NCBI GenBank assembly: GCA_024223125.1
Contig: JAAEOP010000664.1
Location: 1 to 12,269 of the forward strand
DNA length: 12,269 nt
Origin: Chloroflexota bacterium
GTDB taxonomy: Bacteria > Chloroflexota > Anaerolineae > Promineifilales > Promineifilaceae
Reading direction: 5' to 3'
Shown here: positions 681 through 12,269 of the stretch, piece after piece
How the letters are laid out: every line of letters begins with the position of its first letter
Numbering within the stretch: position 1 is the stretch's first letter
Position numbers and translations under genes: made by a program
Notes under the pieces: model-generated
What the model was told of the DNA's origin: nothing
The model's database searches: none
The model's input: only the letters and a program-made list of their open reading frames with translations

Positions 681-740
681 GCGGTAAAAGGCAACAACGG
701 ATATTAGTAAAGAACGGATAAAAATTTGGCGGAGGAAACT

Positions 741-2369
741 ATGGCTCAAATATTAATGAACCTGGATAAAGTATCGGTCGCTTTGACCGGAAAAACAATC
801 TTTCAAGCGGTGGATTGGGAAATTCAGAACCGGCAGCGTATTGGTCTGGTTGGGCCAAATGGCGCCGGGAAATCTACATTGATGAAACTGATGAGCGACG
901 AACTCACGGCCGTATCCGGCAACATCTACCGCCAACCCACTCTCACCTGGGCGCGGTTGGAACAAGAACCACAAATGAGCGACGGCCGGACTGTTTTTGA
1001 AGAAGCGCTGACGGCCGTACCCCAATTAACAGCTGTAGAAAGCCAACTACGCCGCCTGGAAAACCAGATGGCTGACCCGGATGTATACAACGATCCGGCC
1101 CGGTTAGAAAAGGTGATGCAGCAGCATGGCCGCGCCCTGGACGAATATGAACGGCTGGACGGGCCGCGTTATGAAAGCCGTGTCAAAGAAGCATTGTCGC
1201 GGGTTGGTCTGGATGAAACCCATTGGCCCACCCCCACCCACCTTCTCAGCGGCGGGCAGAAAAAACTGGTGCTGTTAGCAAAACTTATCGTCTTGCAACC
1301 CAAGCTGCTGCTGCTGGATGAGCCAGACAATCATCTGGACGTACCGGCCAAAGAACATTTGGAAAAACTGATTAACAGCTACGATGGCTGCGTTGTCATT
1401 ATTTCCCACGACCGATATTTGCTGGATGAAGTGGCGACCCATATTGCGGAATTGGAAAACGGCCGTCTCACCCTCTACCCCGGCAACTACAGCGCCTACA
1501 CCACCGAAAGGGAGTTGCGTCGCCTGCGCCAACAGCAGTTGTACCAGGCGCAGCAAAAAGAGATTGCCCGCATTGAGGCGGCCATCACCCGTTTTGAACT
1601 GTGGGCCTCCATCGTAGTAGATGTACGCCACATCCGTCAGGCACGCGCCCGCCGCAAAATGTTAGACCGTATGGACAAGATCGAAAAGGTTACAGATGCC
1701 CGCCGCATGAGTTTAGACTTGAATGGCTGGCGCGGCAGCAAAAAAGTTGTGGAATTGGAAAATGTGAGTCTGACGCTGCCCAACGGCCGTCCCCTTTGGC
1801 ACAATCTCAACCACATCATCTGGCATGGGGAACGGGTGGGGCTGGTGGGACCAAATGGGGCCGGCAAATCTATGCTCATGAAGCAGATGCTTGATCCAGA
1901 GGGAGTACCGAACGGCCGGATTAAAATCGGCCCCAGCATCAAAATTGGCTATTACGCCCAGGAGCAAGAAACATTGGACACTAAGAAAACACCTCTGCAA
2001 GAAATCCGGTCTACGGCCGCCATCAGCGAAGGAGATACCGTCGCGTTTCTGCACCGCTTCCTGTTTACTTATGACCAGGTACGCAACCCCATTTATGAAT
2101 TGAGCGGTGGTGAGCGCAGCCGTTTGCAGTTAGCCAAATTGGTTCTCGGCCGTCCTAACCTGCTACTGTTGGATGAACCAACCAACAACCTAGACATCAA
2201 TGCCATTGAAGTGTTGGAACAAACCATAGAAGAGTTCGTGGGAACTGTCCTGGTCATCTCCCACGACCGCTACTTTCTGGATCAGGTCGTAGACCGCATC
2301 ATCGAGCTAAAAGATAGCAAATTCACCGAATTCGAGGGTGGATATACGGATTATATTGTCCGCTTGTAG
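741..2369 (+). CDS. ABC-F family ATP-binding protein (translation factor type)
   Basis: Two tandem ABC ATPase domains and no membrane segments mark a soluble ABC-F protein. This family binds the ribosomal E site and relieves stalled translation; some members protect against antibiotics. From ATG 741 the product has 542 residues. Domain 1 has Walker A GPNGAGKS (about 38-45), signature LSGGQ (about 169-173), Walker B with DEPDNHLD (about 193-200) and H-loop ISHDRY (about 221-226). The charged helical linker typical of ABC-F covers about 250-325. Domain 2 has GPNGAGKS (about 369-376), LSGGE (about 454-458), DEPTNNLD (about 478-485) and ISHDRY (about 506-511). ATG 741 is preferred over an in-frame TTG at 726 because GGAGGAA lies at 731-737, five bases upstream. 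One oddity is that domain 1 has Asp where most ABC-F proteins have Thr (DEPTNHLD). The sequence cannot distinguish a housekeeping from a resistance role. It is monocistronic: a terminator lies upstream and convergent genes downstream. Confidence 0.92.
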   Translation: MAQILMNLDKVSVALTGKTIFQAVDWEIQNRQRIGLVGPNGAGKSTLMKLMSDELTAVSGNIYRQPTLTWARLEQEPQMSDGRTVFEEALTAVPQLTAVESQLRRLENQMADPDVYNDPARLEKVMQQHGRALDEYERLDGPRYESRVKEALSRVGLDETHWPTPTHLLSGGQKKLVLLAKLIVLQPKLLLLDEPDNHLDVPAKEHLEKLINSYDGCVVIISHDRYLLDEVATHIAELENGRLTLYPGNYSAYTTERELRRLRQQQLYQAQQKEIARIEAAITRFELWASIVVDVRHIRQARARRKMLDRMDKIEKVTDARRMSLDLNGWRGSKKVVELENVSLTLPNGRPLWHNLNHIIWHGERVGLVGPNGAGKSMLMKQMLDPEGVPNGRIKIGPSIKIGYYAQEQETLDTKKTPLQEIRSTAAISEGDTVAFLHRFLFTYDQVRNPIYELSGGERSRLQLAKLVLGRPNLLLLDEPTNNLDINAIEVLEQTIEEFVGTVLVISHDRYFLDQVVDRIIELKDSKFTEFEGGYTDYIVRL

Positions 2370-2522: not shown

Positions 2523-2795
2523 TTAGCGACGGCCGTTGACATAAGCTTGCATCGCTACCAACGGCACTTCGGCAACCAGACGGCTCTCCCGATCATCCTG
2601 ATCCAGACTCACCATCACATCTTCCGGGTTAATTTCCAAATGCTTGACCAATACCTGGATGATTTCATCTTTAATCTGGGCTATGACCCCCGGCGATACG
2701 TCGCTGCGGTCATGAATCAGCACCATTTGTAAGCGTTTTTTGGCAGTGGCCCCACTTTTTTCTTCTCTACCCAATAACCTGTCTATCCAACTCAT
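2523..2795 (-). CDS. minE: Cell division topological specificity factor MinE
   Basis: The 90-residue product matches MinE in length and layout. It has a short amphipathic N-terminal membrane-binding segment (MSWIDRLLGR), then the anti-MinCD region KKRLQMVLIHDRSDVSPG (about 19-36), and a C-terminal dimerisation domain with KDEIIQVLVKHLEI and LVAEVPLV. MinE stimulates the MinD ATPase and drives MinCD off the membrane at mid-cell, so the division septum forms centrally. It is the last gene of minC-minD-minE. Its ribosome site AAAGGAGA overlaps the minD stop codon (13 bases lie between the genes), which points to translational coupling. Confidence 0.96.
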   Translation of the reverse strand: MSWIDRLLGREEKSGATAKKRLQMVLIHDRSDVSPGVIAQIKDEIIQVLVKHLEINPEDVMVSLDQDDRESRLVAEVPLVAMQAYVNGRR

Positions 2796-2808
2796 AGACC
2801 ACTCTCCT

Positions 2809-3612
2809 TTAATTGCCGTTTAGCCAATTGTTCAACCTTTCCAGTAATCCGCCTCTGACCTTTAGTTCCATATAAGGAATTTCTTCCCCTTCCAGGCGTC
2901 CGGCAATATTGCGGAAAGATTGGCTGGCGCTGGCCCCATTCACACCGTTCATGGCTACCGGCAAGCCCTGGTTAGAGCCAATCAAAATTTGTTCATCTTC
3001 AGGAATGACACCGACGAGTTGAATGGCCAGAATATCTATAACGTCTTCAATGGAAAGCATTTGTCCCCGGTTGACCATATCAGGTTTGACGCGGTTGACA
3101 ATGAGGCGGGCCGGCCCCTTCTCCTCTGCTTCGATCATGCCAATAATTCGGTCAGCATCACGGACGGCCGAAACTTCGGGATTAGTCACAATCAAAACCT
3201 GATCGGTGGCGGCAATGGCGTTGCGGAAACCGCGTTCAATACCAGCCGGAGAATCTATGATAATGTAATCCATCTCCTGTCGTAGTTGATCGCATACCAG
3301 CACCATGTCGGAGGGGCTAACGGCCATTTTGTCCCGTGTTTGGGCGGCCGGAATCAGGTACAATTCCGATTGACGCTTGTCTTTGATCATTGCCTGGCGC
3401 AGCCGACAGCGGCCTTCCACCACATCTACCAAATCGTACACAATGCGGTTTTCTAGCCCCATGACAATATCTAAATTACGCAAACCAATATCGGCGTCCA
3501 GGGCTACTACTTTACGGCCGCGTATGGCCAGAGCCACCGCCAGGTTTGCAGTGACGGTGGTTTTACCCACTCCCCCTTTGCCCGATGTGACAGTAATAAC
3601 TTTTCCGCTCAT
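2809..3612 (-). CDS. minD: Septum site-determining ATPase MinD
   Basis: MinD is the membrane-cycling P-loop ATPase that recruits MinC and is itself displaced by MinE. The 267-residue product begins with the deviant Walker A GKGGVGKT (11-18). ALDADIGLRNLD (about 37-48) follows, then the Walker B strand YIIIDSPAG (116-124). It ends in an amphipathic membrane-targeting helix, GGLLERLNNWLNG (about 254-266). Length and motifs agree with bacterial MinD, and the start is fixed by AAAAGGAG just upstream of the ATG. It lies between minC (82-base gap holding a repeat hairpin) and minE (13-base gap). The full set of three supports an oscillating or gradient-forming Min system rather than a MinD homologue used elsewhere. 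Confidence 0.96.
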   Translation of the reverse strand: MSGKVITVTSGKGGVGKTTVTANLAVALAIRGRKVVALDADIGLRNLDIVMGLENRIVYDLVDVVEGRCRLRQAMIKDKRQSELYLIPAAQTRDKMAVSPSDMVLVCDQLRQEMDYIIIDSPAGIERGFRNAIAATDQVLIVTNPEVSAVRDADRIIGMIEAEEKGPARLIVNRVKPDMVNRGQMLSIEDVIDILAIQLVGVIPEDEQILIGSNQGLPVAMNGVNGASASQSFRNIAGRLEGEEIPYMELKVRGGLLERLNNWLNGN

Positions 3613-3630
3613 ATTGTTCTCCTTTTAATT

Positions 3631-3683
3631 TGTGGTTGGTGGTAGTGGATAGTGCCAGTCACCAACCAGTAGCCACCAGCCAC
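3631..3683. repeat. Heptanucleotide-repeat hairpin in the minC-minD gap
   Basis: Read on the + strand from 3632 in units of seven, the sequence is GTGGTTG, GTGGTAG, TGGATAG, TGCCAGT, CACCAAC, CAGTAGC, CACCAGC. The second half is the approximate reverse complement of the first. The core GGTTGGTG (3634-3641) pairs perfectly with CACCAACC (3660-3667). It follows the minC stop and precedes the minD ribosome site, with no T tract, so it does not look like a terminator. It resembles the elements at 7548-7580 and 10684-10735 in architecture though not in sequence. Confidence 0.6.
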
Positions 3684-3694
3684 ATGTTTAACTC

Positions 3695-4408
3695 CTATGA
3701 TTTCCATCGCTCGGCAATGATCTGTCCGTTCTTGATGGCTGCCTGTTCAGGTGTGGGTGTGCGCCCCAATTCGTGGGGTGAAATAGCAATTTGATCGGCG
3801 ATACGGAGTTGGGTGGGTTGCAGATCGAGGGCGCGGATGACGGCCGCATCATCCCCCAACGCCCCGGCATGTACCAACCCACGCAAACGTCCCCAGACAA
3901 TCACATCGCCGCCGGCCATAATCTCGGCCCCCGGATTCACATCCCCGATGATGACAATATCTCCTTTATGATAAAGGGAACGGCCGGAGCGCAGCGTTTC
4001 TTTGAGCAATAAAACGTCACGGCCGTTACTGTTTTCTTCCCCATTGGCGGCTGCTTGTGGCTGGGGAATCAGCATGTTCCCATCCAGGTCTGTGTTGCTA
4101 CCCGCCAACCGGATGGCTAAATCCAGATCACGGGTAATGGTACGAGTTTGGGCATCGTCAGAAAGAATAGCCCATAATTCCAGTTCATGTTCCACAAAGA
4201 GACGATGTAGCTGCAATATTTGGGCTTTGGTTAACGGCCGTGATCCCACCTGCAAAGCAACCCGGCTGCCCTGAAAAAAGGAGCCCTTCCGTTCTAATTC
4301 ATCCTGTAATTGGGCATACATCACCTCAAATGACCCTTCAGTGGTGGTGGTCACAAGAAGCCCTTCACGGATGCCTTTTACTTGAAGCTGCTGCGCCTGT
4401 TCAATCAT
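3695..4408 (-). CDS. minC: Septum site-determining protein MinC
   Basis: MinC is the FtsZ assembly inhibitor that MinD places on the membrane. The 237-residue product starts with the N-terminal FtsZ-binding domain, whose VKGIREGLLVT strand (10-20) is typical. It continues through about residue 85, then a Gln/Ala/Asn-rich linker (about 105-130). The C-terminal right-handed beta-helix runs from about 131 to 235, with the hallmark stretch GDVNPGAEIMAGGDVIVWGRLRG (split over 155-177). In that stretch Gly-Asp and Gly-Gly turns recur, followed by HAGALGD (180-186). The last part, IKNGQIIAERW, is also typical. No strong ribosome site is visible before ATG 4408, but no better start keeps the conserved N-terminus. 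It is the first gene of the min operon, and its upstream region carries inverted repeats. Confidence 0.93.
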   Translation of the reverse strand: MIEQAQQLQVKGIREGLLVTTTTEGSFEVMYAQLQDELERKGSFFQGSRVALQVGSRPLTKAQILQLHRLFVEHELELWAILSDDAQTRTITRDLDLAIRLAGSNTDLDGNMLIPQPQAAANGEENSNGRDVLLLKETLRSGRSLYHKGDIVIIGDVNPGAEIMAGGDVIVWGRLRGLVHAGALGDDAAVIRALDLQPTQLRIADQIAISPHELGRTPTPEQAAIKNGQIIAERWKS

Positions 4409-4625: not shown

Positions 4626-4982
4626 TTGGGGCTGGAAGATTTGGATGTAGTCAAAGAAGAATATGATGACCAAAGCAACATCCCCCATCTCTATTGCACA
4701 TCACGCTGGGATGTTGCGCTATGTCCCAATTGCCTGCAATTGAGTTGCCAAGCACATAATTATCCCAAACAAAGACGGTTTCACGACGCACCGCTGCGAG
4801 GTCAAAAAATGGTTCTGGTTTTTGACAGCGCCCGTTTTGATTGCGAAGGGTGTGGCAAGCTCTTTACGCAAGTCATTCGGGATGTTGTGCCTGAATGCAC
4901 TTACACCCAGCGGAAGAGATGCTTAACACGGGTAAAAGTCACAGCAGCATTAACCAGGATATTTCCGCTATACGCAAATTAG
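4626..4982 (+). pseudogene. ISL3-family transposase, N-terminal zinc-ribbon fragment
   Basis: The frame is open from 4611 (after TGA 4608-4610) with no ATG; the first usable codon is TTG 4626. The product shows the N-terminal zinc-binding region of ISL3-type transposases: an ILGLEDLDVV lead-in, then CPNC (about residues 34-37), a His-rich stretch, a basic RGQKMVLVFDSARFDC strand, and a second Cys pair (DCEGCGKLFTQ). Full ISL3 transposases are about 400 residues with a C-terminal DDE catalytic domain. Here the match ends after about 95 residues, and the remaining tail (RVKVTAALTRIFPLYAN) is out-of-frame reading of the adjoining integrase fragment. No terminal inverted repeats were found. It cannot encode a working transposase. 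Confidence 0.65.
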
Positions 4983-5350: not shown

Positions 5351-7537
5351 TTACTCTTCCTGGGGAACAAACTGATCTTCAATATTATCAAAGATTAAAG
5401 TATTAACATTTCCGTCGGAGATATCAACCATCTCGGCAAAAACAGACCGCCATTCCACATCGTCATCCATCAACCAAATTTCTACAGCGTAATTACCTGG
5501 TTCAAGCCAGAGAGCTTCCTGTTCGTAGATAGCTCCTTCACGACGTAAACCGCGTGGTCTATATGTCCTTTCCAGCATAACCTCATCATCCACAGCCACA
5601 CGCAAACCGATAGGGTACCGTTCACCGCCTAATACCATGGAGGGGTCTATATTATCCGGCAGTTTGGCGGCCACTTCGGGGTCCAGATTAGCGGCCGTAG
5701 ACAATAACTGCCCGCCATGATTCAGCACAATTCGTACCTGCCCCTGTTCCGGCAAGGGATTGGTAGCCGTTTGATTAACCAACATAGACGCCAAAAAGAC
5801 AGCCAGCAGAATAACTAAACCCACGCCTAGATAACGGAGATGCCCCCACCAGCTAGGCTTGGCCGCTTCAGATGCTTTTTTGCCCGCGGAACCGACAACA
5901 GTGGCCGACTGCCGTACCTGGGCAGCCTGTTCTAAGTCACCAACCATTTGTGCCCAGACTGACCGGACTTCTTTCTTGCTCCCTGGCGGTAGTTCCAAAA
6001 AGTGGGTATGGCCGGCACGGAAAGTACGCCGTCTTTTCAGCCGGTCAGCAATCCAATGCGGCCCCTCGCGGTGAGAGCAGTCGTCAACAGGACAGCTCAC
6101 CACAATGGCGCCTGCGCTGCCAGCTTCAATGAGTTCGGCTGCCCAGTTGGGATGAAGCATACCAGTGCAGGGAATAACGGCCGTAATCACCGACCGACAC
6201 TCATCATCATCATCCCGCCACTGGCCAACATTTACCCGCGGCGGCAGTTTCGCTTGCAGCAAAGGAATGGAGCCGCCAACACTCATCCCGACACTGTTTA
6301 TCGGTTCTGGTTTCTCCAACGGTGGCAGCGTACCCAACGCCGCATGGCGGTTGCACACATACACCGTTACCGGCGGCTGACCAGCCGCGCTGGCCTGAGC
6401 TGACGTGCGCTGCAAATCTTGGCGGACAACGGCCGACACTAAACGATCCAATTCAATCGCATCATCATGGCAGGCGCCAACACAAATTCCGCAGCCAGTA
6501 CACTTCCCAGGGTTAACCACCGCTAAAGATTCAAAAGGCGACTCATCGTCTCGCTGCACCATTTCGATGGCGTCATAGGGACATTCCCGCGCACAGGCAG
6601 AACAACCGGTACAGTTCGATTCAATGACAATGGACGGTCCGTCATGTTGACCTTTGGCCAGCCAGGGTAAAACGAAGGCCAGCAGCAAAGCTAACAAAGA
6701 AAGCCCCCAAAAGATGGGCGCGCCGATTGTGTCCACTAAAGGCAAGAAACCCATGTAAAGCCAGTCAAGTTCAATGGTACCCACTAATTTGCTTAAATCA
6801 GCCGGGCCAGATAAGGGTGCCGGCCACCACAAAGCAAGCATAATCAAAACCATAACCGTACTAATCATCAACCAACGGGGCGACCAGTAACGGGAACGGG
6901 CCAGACGCAGTACATGGATTAACACCCCTATCAAAATGACTGGCGGGATAAATACATGCAGAAATAACACAATGACAAAAAGAGCATAAGAGGAAGCGGC
7001 TAAATCAGTGCTTCCCAAAATCGAATGGGCAAATGGCCCTCCGGCGAAGGCAATAAAATATTCGGTCAACCATTGGGCCGATTGATCCCATACCAGCCAA
7101 TAGCCCATCAAACCCATAATCCAGATCAAAGCCAACATGACCCAACCCGATACCCAGGCAAACCAGCGATTACCCCAAAAACGGTCGCTGATAAGCATCT
7201 TCAAGGCATGGAGAAAAGCGACAATAATAATGGCGTCTGAGGCATAACGATGAATAGTGCGTACCAGAAGCCCCAGCCAATTCTCACTTAGTCCCATGAC
7301 GCTCAGGTAAGCGCGATCGCTCCCTGGACGGTAAAAAACCGTCAAGAAAACACCGGTAAGAGTCAGAATGATTAACAGGAAAATGGTTAACGTTCCCAGA
7401 TGATACAACGGGTTGTATGGGGTCATTTTGGGACCAATCGTTGTCAGCCGGTTAACAGTCCGTTCCAGAGCAACCCATCCTTTTTCCAGGGCGCGTAACG
7501 TGCGGCGACGGGCATAAATTGAGCGTTGTTTTGCCAT
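5351..7537 (-). CDS. Cytochrome b / ferredoxin / MvhD (FlpD) fusion protein
   Basis: The 728-residue product has five parts in order. (1) A cytochrome b N-terminal domain with about six membrane helices (about 48-68, 95-117, 127-148, 184-212, 222-240, 270-292). Its heme pairs are His96/His110 and His194/His208, each 14 residues apart, as in the bc1/b6 family for two b hemes. (2) Two [4Fe-4S] motifs: Cys309, 312, 315, 319-Pro and Cys346, 349, 352, 356. (3) A domain like the MvhD/FlpD delta subunit of hydrogenase-heterodisulfide reductase complexes (about 390-505), with Cys395, 447, 457, 482, 487 and the stretches VIPCTGMLHP and SCPVDDCSHREGPHW. (4) A single membrane helix (about 568-588). (5) A soluble tail of about 135 residues. 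With the N-terminus inside, the iron-sulfur part is cytoplasmic and the tail outside. Likely role is electron transfer between a cytoplasmic FeS or thiol partner and quinone; the direction is unknown. It is the last gene of the operon, 23 bases after the copper ATPase. Confidence 0.85.
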   Translation of the reverse strand: MAKQRSIYARRRTLRALEKGWVALERTVNRLTTIGPKMTPYNPLYHLGTLTIFLLIILTLTGVFLTVFYRPGSDRAYLSVMGLSENWLGLLVRTIHRYASDAIIIVAFLHALKMLISDRFWGNRWFAWVSGWVMLALIWIMGLMGYWLVWDQSAQWLTEYFIAFAGGPFAHSILGSTDLAASSYALFVIVLFLHVFIPPVILIGVLIHVLRLARSRYWSPRWLMISTVMVLIMLALWWPAPLSGPADLSKLVGTIELDWLYMGFLPLVDTIGAPIFWGLSLLALLLAFVLPWLAKGQHDGPSIVIESNCTGCSACARECPYDAIEMVQRDDESPFESLAVVNPGKCTGCGICVGACHDDAIELDRLVSAVVRQDLQRTSAQASAAGQPPVTVYVCNRHAALGTLPPLEKPEPINSVGMSVGGSIPLLQAKLPPRVNVGQWRDDDDECRSVITAVIPCTGMLHPNWAAELIEAGSAGAIVVSCPVDDCSHREGPHWIADRLKRRRTFRAGHTHFLELPPGSKKEVRSVWAQMVGDLEQAAQVRQSATVVGSAGKKASEAAKPSWWGHLRYLGVGLVILLAVFLASMLVNQTATNPLPEQGQVRIVLNHGGQLLSTAANLDPEVAAKLPDNIDPSMVLGGERYPIGLRVAVDDEVMLERTYRPRGLRREGAIYEQEALWLEPGNYAVEIWLMDDDVEWRSVFAEMVDISDGNVNTLIFDNIEDQFVPQEE

Positions 7538-7547
7538 AATTATGTTT

Positions 7548-7580
7548 TAGTTGCAACTTGTTACTCGTTACTTGCAACTA
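7548..7580. repeat. Heptanucleotide-repeat hairpin at the ATPase/cytochrome b junction
   Basis: TAGTTGCAA (7548-7556) and TTGCAACTA (7572-7580) are perfect reverse complements. Read on the - strand, the element consists of AGTTGCA, AGTAACG, AGTAACA, AGTTGCA, i.e. four heptads. It spans the 3' end of the P-type ATPase gene, so the repeat supplies its last sense codons and its TAA stop, and it lies in the 23-base gap before the next gene. No T tract suited to termination on the - strand is present. Confidence 0.6.
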
Positions 7581-9906
7581 TTTTAGTTCTCCGTAAACGC
7601 AGCGCATTGGTCGTGACAATTAAATTACTAAGCACCATCAACAGCGCTGCCAATGAGGGTTGTAAAAACCCGGTTATAGCCAGAAGCAGGCCAATACTAT
7701 TATATCCAATGGCCCAGGCCAAATTCTGCTTTACTTTCCGCATAGCGGCCGTAGACAACCCCATAAGCCAGGGAACGGCGCGTAAATCATCATGCAACAA
7801 AATGACATCGGCCGCCGATTGGGCTACATCCGTTCCCTGACGCACTGCCAAACCCACGGCCGCGGCCGCCAAAGCAGGCCCATCATTGATACCATCACCG
7901 ACCATAGCCGTTTGTCCAGTGGCCGCTTGCAAACGAGCTACTTTATCTTCCGGCCGTTGTTCAGCATAAACGGGAATGTTGAGAGTTCTCCGCCAACGCC
8001 GGCCGGCGTTTTCATCATCACCAGTCAGGACGGCTACATCCGTTTCCAATGCTTGTAACTGTTGGATTGTTTCCAACGCATCATCACGGATCAGTTCGCC
8101 CAGACCAATTAGGCCGCGCACACGACCGTGCCAACCCGCATACACCACCGTCAAATCATCTTCCTGCCAGGTAGCGGCCGTTTCCTGCAAATCAGACGGC
8201 AAGGTCAGTTCATGGTATTCCATTAAGCGGCGGTTGCCAATCCAAACGGGAGTGTCATCTATTGTGCCAGAAACCCCCTGCCCCGGCCAGACGCGAAAAT
8301 GATGTACTGCCTGGTCTGAAAATTGCTGCTCTGCGCCGCTGACAATGGCTTGCCCCAAAGGATGTTCTGAGTAGGATTCAACGGCCGTCACCCACCTCAT
8401 AAATTCCGTTTCTGCCACCCCATCTGTGTCTACCTTTTGCAGACGGATCGGCCGTTGAGTTAATGTGCCCGTTTTATCAAAATATATTTGTTTCACAGCG
8501 GCCAATCGTTCTAAAACGGCCGTGTACCGTAAAATAATCCCTTCTTCGGCCGCACGTCCCAGACCCACCCACAATGTCAGTGGCGTGGCGATGCCCAACG
8601 CGCAAGGGCAGGCAATAAGCAAAACAGAGAGAGCTATAATCAAGCCCGTTTCCATGCTGTCCCACCATGTCCAAAAAGCAAAAGAAGCCAAAGAGAGGAT
8701 GACAGCTATCGGAACCAGGTGGGCCGCCAATTTATCGGCCAACTGCTCCACCGGCGCCCGCTGCCACAAGGCTTGATGCAGCAAACGGCCGATTTGCCCG
8801 ACAACTGTTTCGGCGCTGACGGCCGTGGTAATCAATTCAAAAGTGCCATCCAGATTGACCGTACCCGCCAACACTTTATCACCGGCATTGTGCGGCACGG
8901 GGTCCGGTTCCCCCGTCACCACGCTTTCATCCACATCCCCCTCGCCCACAGCTACTACGCCGTCAACAGGAAAACGCTTGCCCGGACGAACGCGCACCCG
9001 TGTCCCCACCGACACTTTATCAGCCGGGGTTGTTTGCCAGCCGTCGGCCGTTAGCCAGGTTGCTTCAGATGGAATTTGCTGCCACAGTCGTTCTACCGCC
9101 TCGCCGCTTACTTTTTGCGCCCGCAGTTCCAGCCAATGCCCGACGGCCATTAAAAACAGGAGGATGGCGGCCGTGTCAAAATAAACACTACTCTGCCCCA
9201 CCATCAAATTGCGAACAGACAACCCCAAGGCAGCAAAAGCGCCGATGGCGATGAGAGTGTGGGTATTGGGGCGGCCGCGCAGCAAACTGGCCGCTCCCGC
9301 TCGCAAAATTGGCAGTCCAATTAGGAAAATAACCGGGACACTGATAACGGCAATCATCAGCCGAAAAATGTCGGCCATCCATTCCGTATCGGCCGAAGCG
9401 CGTCCTGTCCACTCCCGAAAATAAAGCATGAAGCTCAAGATCATGATGTGCATGACCAGAACGCCGCTAACCAGTAGCAAATTCCACTGGGCTTCCTCTT
9501 CGTTGTGGGGTTTATCCCCGGCTAAACGAGCGCCATAACCAAACTGCTTAATTTGGCGGGCAATGCGGCGGGGGGATGTTTGTGCCGGATCGTAACTAAC
9601 CTGCGCTTCTCTTTGAATAAAGTTGACGTCGGCGCTTTGGATGCCGGGGGCACGGTCTAATCGTTCGTTGATTAACCAGGCGCAGGAGGGACACCAGAGG
9701 CCGCTCAGGGAAACGGCCGTCGTTTCACATTGTCCAGAAGCGGCCATTGTTTGTGTAGGAGATGGGGATTCAGCCAGCAGGGCGCTGACTTCCAGGCAAG
9801 CCGGGCAACAAAAAAAGTCTCCGGCCGTGTTGGTGAGAGGAAGCGCTGTTGTTAAACCACACAAAGTGCATTGAGCTTGTTCCGATTCTGACGTTAGGGC
9901 TACCAT
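7561..9906 (-). CDS. Copper-translocating P-type ATPase (CcoI/FixI/CopA type)
   Basis: This is a P1B-type ATPase moving copper across the membrane using ATP. From ATG 9906 it has 781 residues. It starts with a cysteine-rich module (Cys13, 16, 33, 34, 37), then a heavy-metal-associated domain with metal site Cys72-Pro-Ser-Cys75 in GLWCPSCAWLI. These two features are typical of CcoI/FixI, which loads heme-copper oxidases. Core motifs are TGEP (331-334), membrane Cys433-Pro-Cys435, DKTGT with phospho-Asp477, SEHP (513-516), GDGIND (670-675), Tyr735-Asn736, and a final-helix Met757/Ser760 in MVLSN. An upstream in-frame start at 10038 would add 44 residues lying inside the TauE-like gene. ATG 9906 is chosen because it sits at the TauE stop (7-base overlap) with the cysteine module soon after. 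The position between an oxidase-superfamily gene and a cytochrome fusion supports a metallocentre assembly role. Confidence 0.92.
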   Translation of the reverse strand: MVALTSESEQAQCTLCGLTTALPLTNTAGDFFCCPACLEVSALLAESPSPTQTMAASGQCETTAVSLSGLWCPSCAWLINERLDRAPGIQSADVNFIQREAQVSYDPAQTSPRRIARQIKQFGYGARLAGDKPHNEEEAQWNLLLVSGVLVMHIMILSFMLYFREWTGRASADTEWMADIFRLMIAVISVPVIFLIGLPILRAGAASLLRGRPNTHTLIAIGAFAALGLSVRNLMVGQSSVYFDTAAILLFLMAVGHWLELRAQKVSGEAVERLWQQIPSEATWLTADGWQTTPADKVSVGTRVRVRPGKRFPVDGVVAVGEGDVDESVVTGEPDPVPHNAGDKVLAGTVNLDGTFELITTAVSAETVVGQIGRLLHQALWQRAPVEQLADKLAAHLVPIAVILSLASFAFWTWWDSMETGLIIALSVLLIACPCALGIATPLTLWVGLGRAAEEGIILRYTAVLERLAAVKQIYFDKTGTLTQRPIRLQKVDTDGVAETEFMRWVTAVESYSEHPLGQAIVSGAEQQFSDQAVHHFRVWPGQGVSGTIDDTPVWIGNRRLMEYHELTLPSDLQETAATWQEDDLTVVYAGWHGRVRGLIGLGELIRDDALETIQQLQALETDVAVLTGDDENAGRRWRRTLNIPVYAEQRPEDKVARLQAATGQTAMVGDGINDGPALAAAAVGLAVRQGTDVAQSAADVILLHDDLRAVPWLMGLSTAAMRKVKQNLAWAIGYNSIGLLLAITGFLQPSLAALLMVLSNLIVTTNALRLRRTKIVASNE

Positions 9907-10679
9907 AACATGATTGTTCCTAAATGAAAATGGCCCACCCACCCCCAGGCTGCCAGGCCGCGCAGCGCCATCTGCACCCCAAACAGCATAATGAGCGCGG
10001 CGGCCGCGTAACGGAATGATGGTCGGGCTAACGGCCATGATTTCCCCTGTTTTAACCGCGCTGCCAGACTAACGCCAATAGTAACAGGGTACGTTCCCAG
10101 GCCAAAGGCCAACATGGTTAATGCACCCCGTTGGGGCGATCCGGCTACGGCCGCAGCCACCAACGCCGTCATCACTAAACCACAAGGCAGCGCGCCCCAC
10201 AACATACCCAAACCATACAATGTCAAAATGTTGGCTTTTTGGGTGGGGGGATTCGCAGGTGGTGGAGAAGCAGTCACCCGGCGCATGAGTTGTCCCCATC
10301 GTCGGGTAAAACCGGTGAAAAACAGTTCGGGGGAGGGCAGTTGCCCTAGCAATGCCAGGGCCATGTAGATAGAGAGAACGGCCGTTAACAAAGCCAACCC
10401 TCCTTGCAGCCACAACAAACCGTTTACGGCCGTGGCATCAGATTGCCCGCTCAGAGCGGCGGCACAATAACTGATAAACTTCATAATGGAAAAGCCCAGA
10501 CTTCCGGCGGCCGCCCCCAGCAGCCCATATGTCGTTACTCGCCCCAAATGCAAAAAGATGACCCGCCAACCTCGCGCCTGTCCACGACGGCCGAGAAGTA
10601 AAGCCACCCCGCTGCACATACCAACGCAATGACCCAAACTACCGGTAAGACCGAGTAACAATACTGCCCACATATACAC
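9900..10679 (-). CDS. UreH/TauE-SafE-like membrane protein with cysteine motif (oxidase copper accessory)
   Basis: The 259-residue protein has about six predicted membrane segments and belongs by pattern to the DsbD/UreH-like transmembrane family often labelled 'sulfite exporter TauE/SafE'. The first helix has GLTGSLGHCVGMCSG (10-24) with His17, Cys18 and Cys22. A mirrored site in the second half is WGALPCGLV (161-169) with Cys166. Cys in these two half-repeats is typical of DsbD-like proteins and suggests thiol/metal chemistry rather than sulfite transport. A genuine cytosolic loop (about 113-150) separates the halves. Relatives are commonly encoded next to CcoI/FixI ATPases in cbb3 oxidase clusters, and the gene directly downstream here is such an ATPase. 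Its stop overlaps that gene's start by 7 bases. ATG 10679 is followed by another ATG two codons later, and neither has a clear ribosome site. Confidence 0.78.
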   Translation of the reverse strand: MYMWAVLLLGLTGSLGHCVGMCSGVALLLGRRGQARGWRVIFLHLGRVTTYGLLGAAAGSLGFSIMKFISYCAAALSGQSDATAVNGLLWLQGGLALLTAVLSIYMALALLGQLPSPELFFTGFTRRWGQLMRRVTASPPPANPPTQKANILTLYGLGMLWGALPCGLVMTALVAAAVAGSPQRGALTMLAFGLGTYPVTIGVSLAARLKQGKSWPLARPSFRYAAAALIMLFGVQMALRGLAAWGWVGHFHLGTIMLW

Positions 10680-10741: not shown

Positions 10742-12269
10742 CTAATTAATAAACCACGCTCTACCCAACAACCACCAATTGCTAAAGTAGTAGAGAACAA
10801 AGAACATCAAGAAAGCAAACACAATGGCAACGGTGCCTTTGGGAACCAACTTCCCTTCTGCTTCTTTGCCAACATTAGGCAGTGCATCTTCCACTAGTGG
10901 GTTTTCCTGGCTCATCACTAATGTCAACCGGCTGGCTTCCGTCTGCTTACCCAAAAAGACTGAGCTGAGAACCACCAGCAAGAACATAATACCGCCCGTA
11001 ATGGCGATCAACGCTCCAATGCCCATCACCCCCAACATCAACTGCGCCGTACCAGGCACATCTGTGGAAAAGGCAGATTGAGAAAACGTCACATCCCAAT
11101 GCCGCCGGGAGACGCCTTGCAATCCGGCCGCAATCATGCCTACTGAAACGAGCGTCATACCGCCGCCAAACACATACGGCTGCCACGAAGCCACACCTTT
11201 GAACCGTAATTTACGCCGGAAAATGAGCGGAATCAGATAGTAGGTAATGCCCATAAAGGCCAATGTGGAACCAGCAACGACTGTAGCGTGGAAATGTCCG
11301 GGCAGGCGCATTGTATTGTGAGCAGTCATGTTAATCTGCTCTGTGCCAATGGTGACGCCGGTAACGCCGCCAATCCAGCCAAACAGCACCATGGAAATGA
11401 CCAAAGCAGAGAATCCCGGTTCTTTCCAGGGGGCTTTTCGCAGCCAGCCAAATAACCCATTGGTAAACCCTTTGCGTCGTTGGGCGATTTCTACAGCCGC
11501 TGGAATTGAAAAAGCATGAATCAAACTGCCCAGTACCGCCAGGTACATGGCGTAAGAAGTATTAAACGTCTTCCAACCAAACCCATAAGCAGGATCAGTT
11601 AATAAATGATGCGCCGAACCCAGATTAATGAAAAGGATGTAACAAATAAAGGCAAAGCGTGACAATTTCTCGTTAACGGGGACGGCGCCAACCGTAAACT
11701 GCGCCAGCGCGTACCAGATAGCTATCATAGCAGCCAGATTGATCTGCTGTGCTGTATGCCCAAAGCCCCAGAACAGATTGCGGTAATAACCGGGGTCAAC
11801 TTCCATCAGTCCCATCGAAGCCAGCCAGGCCGGTATATAAGCCAATGCGCCAGAAACCAGGGCGTAGGTGGCAATGATGGCCGCCGTCACCAGGCCATAG
11901 GTGAACAAGGGCAAAGAGCCTTCATACGCTTTTTCTCTTTTGGCGGTGACAACGGTGGCAAAAAAGACAAAGACAGCCACCAACGCCCCCACCGCAAACA
12001 AGATAATCCCCAGGTAAAATGAGGGGTGTGCTTTTAATGGTACGTAAGCGGTAAACATCACGTCCGCTTTGCCCATCAGCACAATAATGTTCACCATCAA
12101 TGTGCCTACCACCATTAACACAAATGCACCCCAGGCTACTTTGGGGAAAACCAGGCGGGCGTTGAGAACAACTGTAGCCCCAAAATAAAGCCCGGCTACT
12201 TCAAAAAAGACCATCCACACGACCAGCATATCTAAGCCATGAGCGGTTAAAATACGATAGAACCATTCG
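10742..12269 (-). CDS. Heme-copper oxidase superfamily subunit I, B-type-like, lacking active-site tyrosine (5' end outside window)
   Basis: The frame stays open to the window edge, so an internal ATG at 12229 is not the start. 508 residues are visible, beginning EWFYRILTAHGLDM, which contains the helix II low-spin-heme His (visible residue 10); only the first helix or so is missing. The order of motifs fits the ba3-like B family. CuB His171 is in FWGFGHTAQQ, the CuB pair His220-His221 in SAHHLLTDP, and HNTMRLPGHFH holds the high-spin-heme and low-spin-heme His (325, 327). About 12 membrane helices are present. The tyrosine normally cross-linked to the first CuB His (four residues on) is absent; Gln175 stands there. 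Oxygen reductases need this tyrosine (except where another helix supplies it, as in cbb3), while nitric oxide reductases lack it. Function is therefore O2 or, more likely, NO reduction. A CuA subunit II is expected upstream. Confidence 0.88.
   Translation of the reverse strand, partial: EWFYRILTAHGLDMLVVWMVFFEVAGLYFGATVVLNARLVFPKVAWGAFVLMVVGTLMVNIIVLMGKADVMFTAYVPLKAHPSFYLGIILFAVGALVAVFVFFATVVTAKREKAYEGSLPLFTYGLVTAAIIATYALVSGALAYIPAWLASMGLMEVDPGYYRNLFWGFGHTAQQINLAAMIAIWYALAQFTVGAVPVNEKLSRFAFICYILFINLGSAHHLLTDPAYGFGWKTFNTSYAMYLAVLGSLIHAFSIPAAVEIAQRRKGFTNGLFGWLRKAPWKEPGFSALVISMVLFGWIGGVTGVTIGTEQINMTAHNTMRLPGHFHATVVAGSTLAFMGITYYLIPLIFRRKLRFKGVASWQPYVFGGGMTLVSVGMIAAGLQGVSRRHWDVTFSQSAFSTDVPGTAQLMLGVMGIGALIAITGGIMFLLVVLSSVFLGKQTEASRLTLVMSQENPLVEDALPNVGKEAEGKLVPKGTVAIVFAFLMFFVLYYFSNWWLLGRAWFIN

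Follow-up and report, generated by a model that had tools for sequence, protein, structure and literature searches.

The closest described systems each share part of the gene studied here. The eNOR is an NO reductase proposed to pump protons, and a Gln in place of the active-site tyrosine is its published criterion (PMC8756737); the parts of the eNOR literature consulted name no electron donor for it. Table A3 of the same paper contains RME88945.1, a protein with cytochrome b6, DMSO-reductase-beta-like and FlpD domains that stands among the ORFs holding a C1 cytochrome domain. This domain combination is thus already in print, and in the parts of that paper available to us it is listed without explanation: neither a function nor a connection with an oxygen reductase or eNOR is given. 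MvhD holds a [2Fe-2S] cluster and links a dehydrogenase or hydrogenase to HdrA, according to the portions of PMC12350162 seen, and for the Rieske/b complexes of Kuenenia a quinol bifurcation to NAD(P) has been proposed (PMC12954380, seen in part). No account of the function or electron route of a fusion of these domains was found in the literature searched; the main 2024 eNOR paper, which lay outside that search, may mention it. Here we describe such a fusion beside an eNOR gene. Our leading interpretation, which we judge about equally likely to be right or wrong, is that the fusion serves as a module delivering electrons to a CuA-type, ba3-like (B-family) heme-copper reductase, in this case eNOR.

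The stretch of DNA that was analyzed (the window, 12,269 nt) carries the fusion gene on its minus strand (Table 1). The initial annotation had described it as one chain of cytochrome b, two [4Fe-4S] clusters, an FlpD domain, a membrane helix and an outer tail, and Pfam and the homologues bear this out. Cytochrome_B (PF00033) matches residues 43-213 at 3.4e-17 (63.3 bits, cut-off 27.2), Fer4/Fer4_7 match residues 303-359 at about 9e-10, and FlpD (PF02662) matches residues 454-502 at 1.1e-6 (29.1 bits, cut-off 22.3). The AF2 model of the whole chain has a pLDDT of 77.5. The loop charges fit an N-in protein with six helices, a cytoplasmic Fe-S/FlpD part, a seventh helix and an acidic outer tail, indicating that the N terminus and the Fe-S/FlpD part lie inside and the tail outside. 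A homologue search with the fusion protein yielded 1156 proteins at E<=1e-3 (7995 candidates scored), and about 117 of the best 120 of these combine cytochrome b, Fe-S and FlpD; the exceptions are P0103, without cytochrome b, and P0105 and P0108, for which no FlpD is listed. Fusion-bearing loci come from many bacterial phyla (best 80 of at least 191 loci, not a random sample). A chance joining or an assembly error of separate genes would fit with the window being one lone contig of 12.3 kb. The recurrence of the same domains in the best homologues and in many phyla refutes this, and we consider it hardly conceivable.

Table 1. Features of the fusion gene and its upstream neighbors in the window
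Feature	Position	Strand	Basis
Fusion gene (cytochrome b, 2x[4Fe-4S], FlpD, TM, outer tail), 728 aa	5354..7537 (gene span 5351..7537)	minus	ORF, Pfam, homologues, AF2 model
bc-type cytochrome b, residues 43-294, six helices	6656..7411	minus	PF00033, family profile, Foldseek
Codon of D258, which may correspond to the glutamate of PEWY (outer quinone site)	6764..6766	minus	Conservation, weak alignment
Two [4Fe-4S] motifs, C309/312/315/319 and C346/349/352/356	6458..6631	minus	Pfam Fer4 families, conservation
FlpD/MvhD-like domain (limits approximate), C395, C457, C482, C487	5942..6376	minus	Pfam, profile, conservation
Seventh transmembrane helix, residues 563-587	5777..5851	minus	AF2 helix 563-585; one charged residue
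Extracytoplasmic beta-sandwich tail, residues 588-728	5354..5776	minus	AF2, fold search
P1B-type heavy-metal ATPase, CPC motif, HMA domain; true start may lie within the listed ORF	7561..10038	minus	ORF, Pfam
DsbD_2/SafE-type membrane protein	9900..10679	minus	PF13386, 1.4e-34
eNOR subunit I (COX1), 5' end cut by the contig	10742..12268	minus	PF00115, 2.5e-58; alignment to ba3-type chains

The cytochrome b part belongs to the bc-type family: the family profile matches cytochrome b6 at 1.8e-36, and bc-complex cytochrome b chains head the Foldseek list (best 4e-6). Fusion ORFs of at least 470 aa were obtained from 72 of the 80 loci (none from L019, L040, L052, L054, L070, L075, L079 or L080; L079 and L080 are weak matches of 74-75 bits). 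For the residue counts, 74 rows were reduced to 66 (65 loci and the window) by leaving out the GC-rich, wrong-frame L026, L027, L028, L045, L058 and L076, L059, which has no FlpD part, and the second, ordinary cytochrome b of L071; alignments A1-A6 are chosen subsets. The heme ligands H96, H110, H194 and H208 are kept in all covering rows of the 66, with H96/H194 probably forming the outer-side heme pair and H110/H208 the inner-side pair. D258 is D in 64 of the 66 covering rows and N in L022 and L069. It precedes a W that aligns with the W of the ordinary cytochrome b in L071, which has a P there, although this alignment is weak (7 bits), a weakness that counts against the delivery interpretation. 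We take the glutamate of the PEWY motif to sit at the outer quinone site, where D258 may be its match, and we presume that GYWLVWD of the fusion corresponds to GYSLPWD of b6. The fusion shares with the cytochrome b of bc1/b6f complexes its sequence family, the four heme histidines, this motif and perhaps an acid near the PEWY place, but it carries an inner Fe-S/FlpD part and an outer domain in addition, and the window offers no Rieske partner. The absence of a Rieske gene from the nine window ORFs scanned with Pfam also speaks against electron delivery; in the two other loci scanned for one, L036 and L071, Rieske genes were found. Because a conserved acid lies at the likely outer quinone site, quinol would be handled near the outer face.

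The ferredoxin and FlpD parts differ in how strictly they are kept. The eight cluster cysteines are present in every covering row of the 66, except C315 in L008. PF02662 is matched by all 39 family members scanned at E<=0.1 (a set that leaves out the clade without FlpD cysteines described below), and the profile of this set finds six PDB sequences at E<=0.1 (best 1.2e-16), each of them MvhD-type. The CCNWC of MvhD aligns with a single Cys, the window having V-C-N-R-H there, so that CxxC has become CxxH and four of MvhD's cysteine places are retained as a candidate [2Fe-2S] site. The histidine of C-x-R-H is not general (24 of 74 rows, before row removal). Conservation of the FlpD cysteines, the lack of which the initial annotation had named as grounds for refutation, holds in large part: among 52 of the 66 rows, C395 is present in 52, C457 and C482 in 51 each, and the C487 column in 40, L055 is without both C457 and C482, and C482 is also replaced in three further proteins. 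It fails in the other 14 rows, where all FlpD cysteines are gone; together these rows make up precisely one clade (support 100), its loci titled Chloroflexota, in which the heme and [4Fe-4S] ligands are retained.

These patterns bear on the earlier proposal that the fusion wires a thiol/HdrA system to the quinone pool. The wiring of cytoplasmic Fe-S centers to the membrane is supported, and ferredoxin and FlpD follow each other as at the C-terminal end of the HdrA2 model; this model matches residues 339-537 in L071 (1.5e-16) and residues 302-396 in the window (7.6e-13), both far below the cut-off. In the fusion, however, cytochrome b replaces the flavoprotein body of HdrA2, the second Cys of the MvhD CxxC is lost, and the cysteines are dispensable in one clade. 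Only 13 of 28 fusion genomes contain HdrA2-model matches (counted at E<=1e-30, many of them partial, with at most 25 candidates scored per genome), and none exceeds the curated cut-off. Beyond the fusion family, the ORFs of the 80 loci encode just one further FlpD protein, a small one from L080, which is a weak locus. Because HdrA2-model matches occur in just these 13 genomes and one clade has lost all FlpD cysteines, the HdrA link is poorly supported; a thiol/HdrA partner finds no support, and we consider the wire in its original form very unlikely.

The genes upstream of the fusion identify the enzyme in its neighborhood. The COX1 protein has CuB-type HH, the heme-ligand motif GHFH, and GHTAQQ, which aligns with GHPIVY of ba3 oxidase and places Gln at the Tyr position. 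Since Gln in place of the active-site tyrosine is the published criterion, this protein is eNOR subunit I, which sharpens its earlier description as a NOR-like neighbor. The metal ATPase, whose N-terminal Cys motif we assume to be CcoI-like, and the DsbD_2 gene stand between the fusion and COX1. The window ends inside COX1; in related clusters of both the Gln and the Tyr type, subunit II has a CuA motif, and in nine Bacteroidota-titled loci it carries CxxCH too. A second, degenerate COX1-like gene lies beside eNOR at L041:4310-5866; its alignment is without the CuB-type HH, its COX1 match is weak and below cut-off (5.6e-6), and it has no NCBIfam match. Similar degenerate genes occur in L029, L031, L038, L039, L040, L044, L048, L052 and L055. 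Elsewhere in the window, MinC, MinD and MinE genes stand in a row (2523-4408, minus), and the contig is probably from Chloroflexota. An ISL3-type transposase zinc ribbon (4626-4982, plus; 1.7e-5) is perhaps an insertion-sequence remnant between MinC and the fusion, and an ABC-F-like protein with two ABC domains and ABC_tran_Xtn is encoded at 726-2369 (plus).

A survey of the 80 loci shows that a COX1 of the NOR/oxidase type is common beside the fusion. A same-strand COX1 with an intact HH site is present in 59 of them, 50 Gln-type and 9 Tyr-type. A further 14 loci end within 6.5 kb upstream of the fusion, and in seven, COX1 is absent nearby despite at least 6.5 kb upstream (L011, L016, L027, L028, L069 and the weak L079 and L080). 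In the genome of L011, one contig bears both an eNOR-scoring COX1 and a metal ATPase, with no fusion in the stretch read.

We also searched 548 genomes of two phyla, scoring three to five candidates per genome, and found the fusion in 17, all of which have an upper-tier, Gln-type COX1. In the phylum to which L001 belongs (301 genomes), an upper-tier COX1 (>860 bits to the eNOR profile) occurs in 12 genomes and a lower-tier one (627-734 bits) in nine, and the 10 fusion carriers are all upper-tier. In that of L061, a locus titled Sphingobacteriales (247 genomes), seven genomes have an upper-tier COX1 and five a lower-tier one (600-628 bits), and the fusion is in exactly those seven. Fisher tests of fusion against COX1 tier give 5e-17 and 1e-13, respectively, ignoring kinship and the inclusion of the centre genomes G001 and G010, which were chosen as carriers. 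In the first phylum, each of the 31 genomes that had a COX1 match but no fusion was rescored more fully, alongside four positives, and a full-length fusion was still not found in two of the 12 upper-tier genomes (G227 and G295) or in any of the nine lower-tier genomes; the five lower-tier genomes of the second phylum have no fusion either. The COX1 is Gln-type in G227 and G295 (L081, L082) and in 13 of the 14 lower-tier genomes (L083-L090 and L106-L110; all but G201 read), so that two eNOR set-ups exist, one of them without a full-length fusion. This second set-up counts against a role in electron delivery.

The fusion itself falls into two clades that match its partners. In a tree of 64 rows (63 of the 80 loci and the window, also without L073 and L074; quick method, cytochrome b and ferredoxin part), nine Tyr-linked rows and L069 are set apart from 44 Gln-linked and 10 unlinked rows with a support of 99, and without the 11 unlinked rows the tree holds one change of partner. 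The nearest row to the window is L001, from a MAG titled Chloroflexi. In G038, G099 and G139, a second fusion, each with CxxCH, lies about 300-400 bases behind a second, Tyr-type COX1, and in seven of the nine Tyr-linked loci, the fusion is within 130 bases of COX1.

The outer tail distinguishes the two clades further. Modeled alone, residues 562-728 form a beta-sandwich with a pLDDT of 91.6. As the initial annotation had it, the tail belongs to no recognized family: Pfam gives no significant match for the tail of the window or for those of 34 relatives scanned alongside, and there is no significant PDB sequence match. The tail is conserved, and it is a separate small gene in eight loci titled Proteobacteria (the L032 copy was aligned). 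On the Tyr side, CxxCH is present in the fusion C terminus in seven of 10 rows and also in L073, outside the tree; L030 and L036 have separate CxxCH genes, and none was seen in L068. In the two of these that were scanned, L067 and L071, cytochrome c (PF00034) exceeds the cut-off. On the eNOR side, CxxCH was seen in no fusion ORF, and in L023 the gene directly following the fusion encodes cytochrome c. By their motifs, the sister clade stands behind CuA-type oxygen reductases, and its outer tail mostly bears a c-type heme. RME88945.1 is probably a heme-c form of the same family because it is listed with cytochrome b6 and FlpD domains among the C1-domain ORFs. Among other genes behind the fusion, L012:12078-12572 and eight other loci (cluster 10) encode, on the strand opposite to the fusion, a protein of 164 aa that belongs to no Pfam family, and L001:12213-12919 holds Gp49-like and helix-turn-helix genes resembling a toxin-antitoxin pair.

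The delivery interpretation builds on the observed domains, ligands, topology signal, linkage and matching clades, and on the heme c motif and domain of the sister clade; quinol binding, the direction of flow, the hand-over to CuA and a cytoplasmic partner are what it would add. The cytochrome b with its two b hemes would span the membrane and handle quinol near the outer face. The inner ferredoxin-FlpD segment would connect a cytoplasmic iron-sulfur donor or acceptor to the inner heme, and the helix-anchored outer domain, a c-type cytochrome in most of the oxygen-reductase clade, would lie near the outer heme. Electrons could then pass from quinol, a cytoplasmic iron-sulfur donor or both through heme b to the outer face and on to CuA. 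Delivery accounts for heme c, for the closeness to COX1 on the Tyr side, for the matching clades and for the quinone-site acid. The last step to CuA is left unaccounted for in the clade of the window because the tail there is without a heme motif. The initial annotation had suggested a shared electron pathway with the NOR-like neighbor, and the tight linkage, the matching clades and the heme c on the tail of the sister clade strengthen that suggestion.

The gene nearest to the fusion suggests another role. Within 500 bases upstream, this gene encodes SCO in 38 and a metal ATPase in 22 of the 80 loci, which suits an assembly factor and counts against delivery. Because SCO or metal-ATPase genes usually adjoin the fusion (60 of 80), the main rival is an assembly reductase that sends electrons outward, where they would reduce Cu(II) or the disulfides of SCO and of the CuA cysteines during the building of the CuA/CuB enzyme. 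It would act like the cupric reductase CcoG together with CcoH, the anchored outer domain of cbb3 assembly, while being neither. The heme-synthesis genes UbiA and CtaA and the DsbD_2 genes in the clusters, as well as PCuAC in L071, fit this role, and in the sources seen in part, redox proteins that serve heme-copper enzymes have precedents in CcoG and the PepSY_TM protein CrpH. The assembly role also accounts for the eNORs without a fusion. Like CcoG/CcoH, the fusion has two [4Fe-4S] motifs, an anchored outer domain and an adjoining metal ATPase, but it has a dihaem cytochrome b and FlpD and no FixG/FixH match in Pfam: the FixG/CcoG families are absent from the table of the window protein at E<=0.1, and the 19 families with a match in at least one of 35 tails at E<=1 do not include FixH. 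Assembly hardly explains why the tail should carry a c-type cytochrome in the oxygen-reductase clade, where the gene is so close to COX1 in seven of nine loci, and it would not need a conserved quinone-site acid either. We rank delivery above assembly and regard the latter as rather unlikely, if the most serious of the alternatives.

The conserved acid, the dihaem b and the inner Fe-S part, joined in the Tyr clade by an outer heme c, also stand in one chain as quinol bifurcation would have them. At the outer site, quinol would give one electron to the reductase, while its other electron would be pushed via the b hemes toward the iron-sulfur/FlpD part in the cytoplasm; the reduction of NO or O2 would in this way drive that of ferredoxin or NAD(P). 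An NAD(P)-binding flavoprotein adjoins b6-like genes at L036:4279-9667 and L073:2499-6091, and L036 also has a Rieske protein and another with three CxxCH motifs, an arrangement similar to the Rieske/b clusters of Kuenenia. The same idea was proposed for the Kuenenia complexes, which, in the parts of PMC12954380 seen, likewise tie a b-type cytochrome to a cytoplasmic redox module, an NAD(P) oxidoreductase, and to an outer heme c; they consist of separate subunits with Rieske, whereas the fusion is one chain without it. The missing Rieske protein and the loss of FlpD cysteines in one clade speak against bifurcation, which we consider unlikely. That the fusion could be a single-chain, Rieske-free quinol-splitting respiratory module for an NO or O2 reductase, with an inward ferredoxin/FlpD port, is a conjecture from sequence that we think unlikely; if true, the module would be a direct respiratory route to low-potential cytoplasmic reductant.

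A dedicated, co-inherited partner, as the preferred delivery interpretation has it, would say how electrons reach eNOR. With a similar partner beside oxygen reductases, a single module would connect the respiration of NO to that of O2. In genomes, the fusion is a marker that separates two kinds of eNOR set-up, and it offers a testable link from cytoplasmic iron-sulfur metabolism to a terminal reductase.
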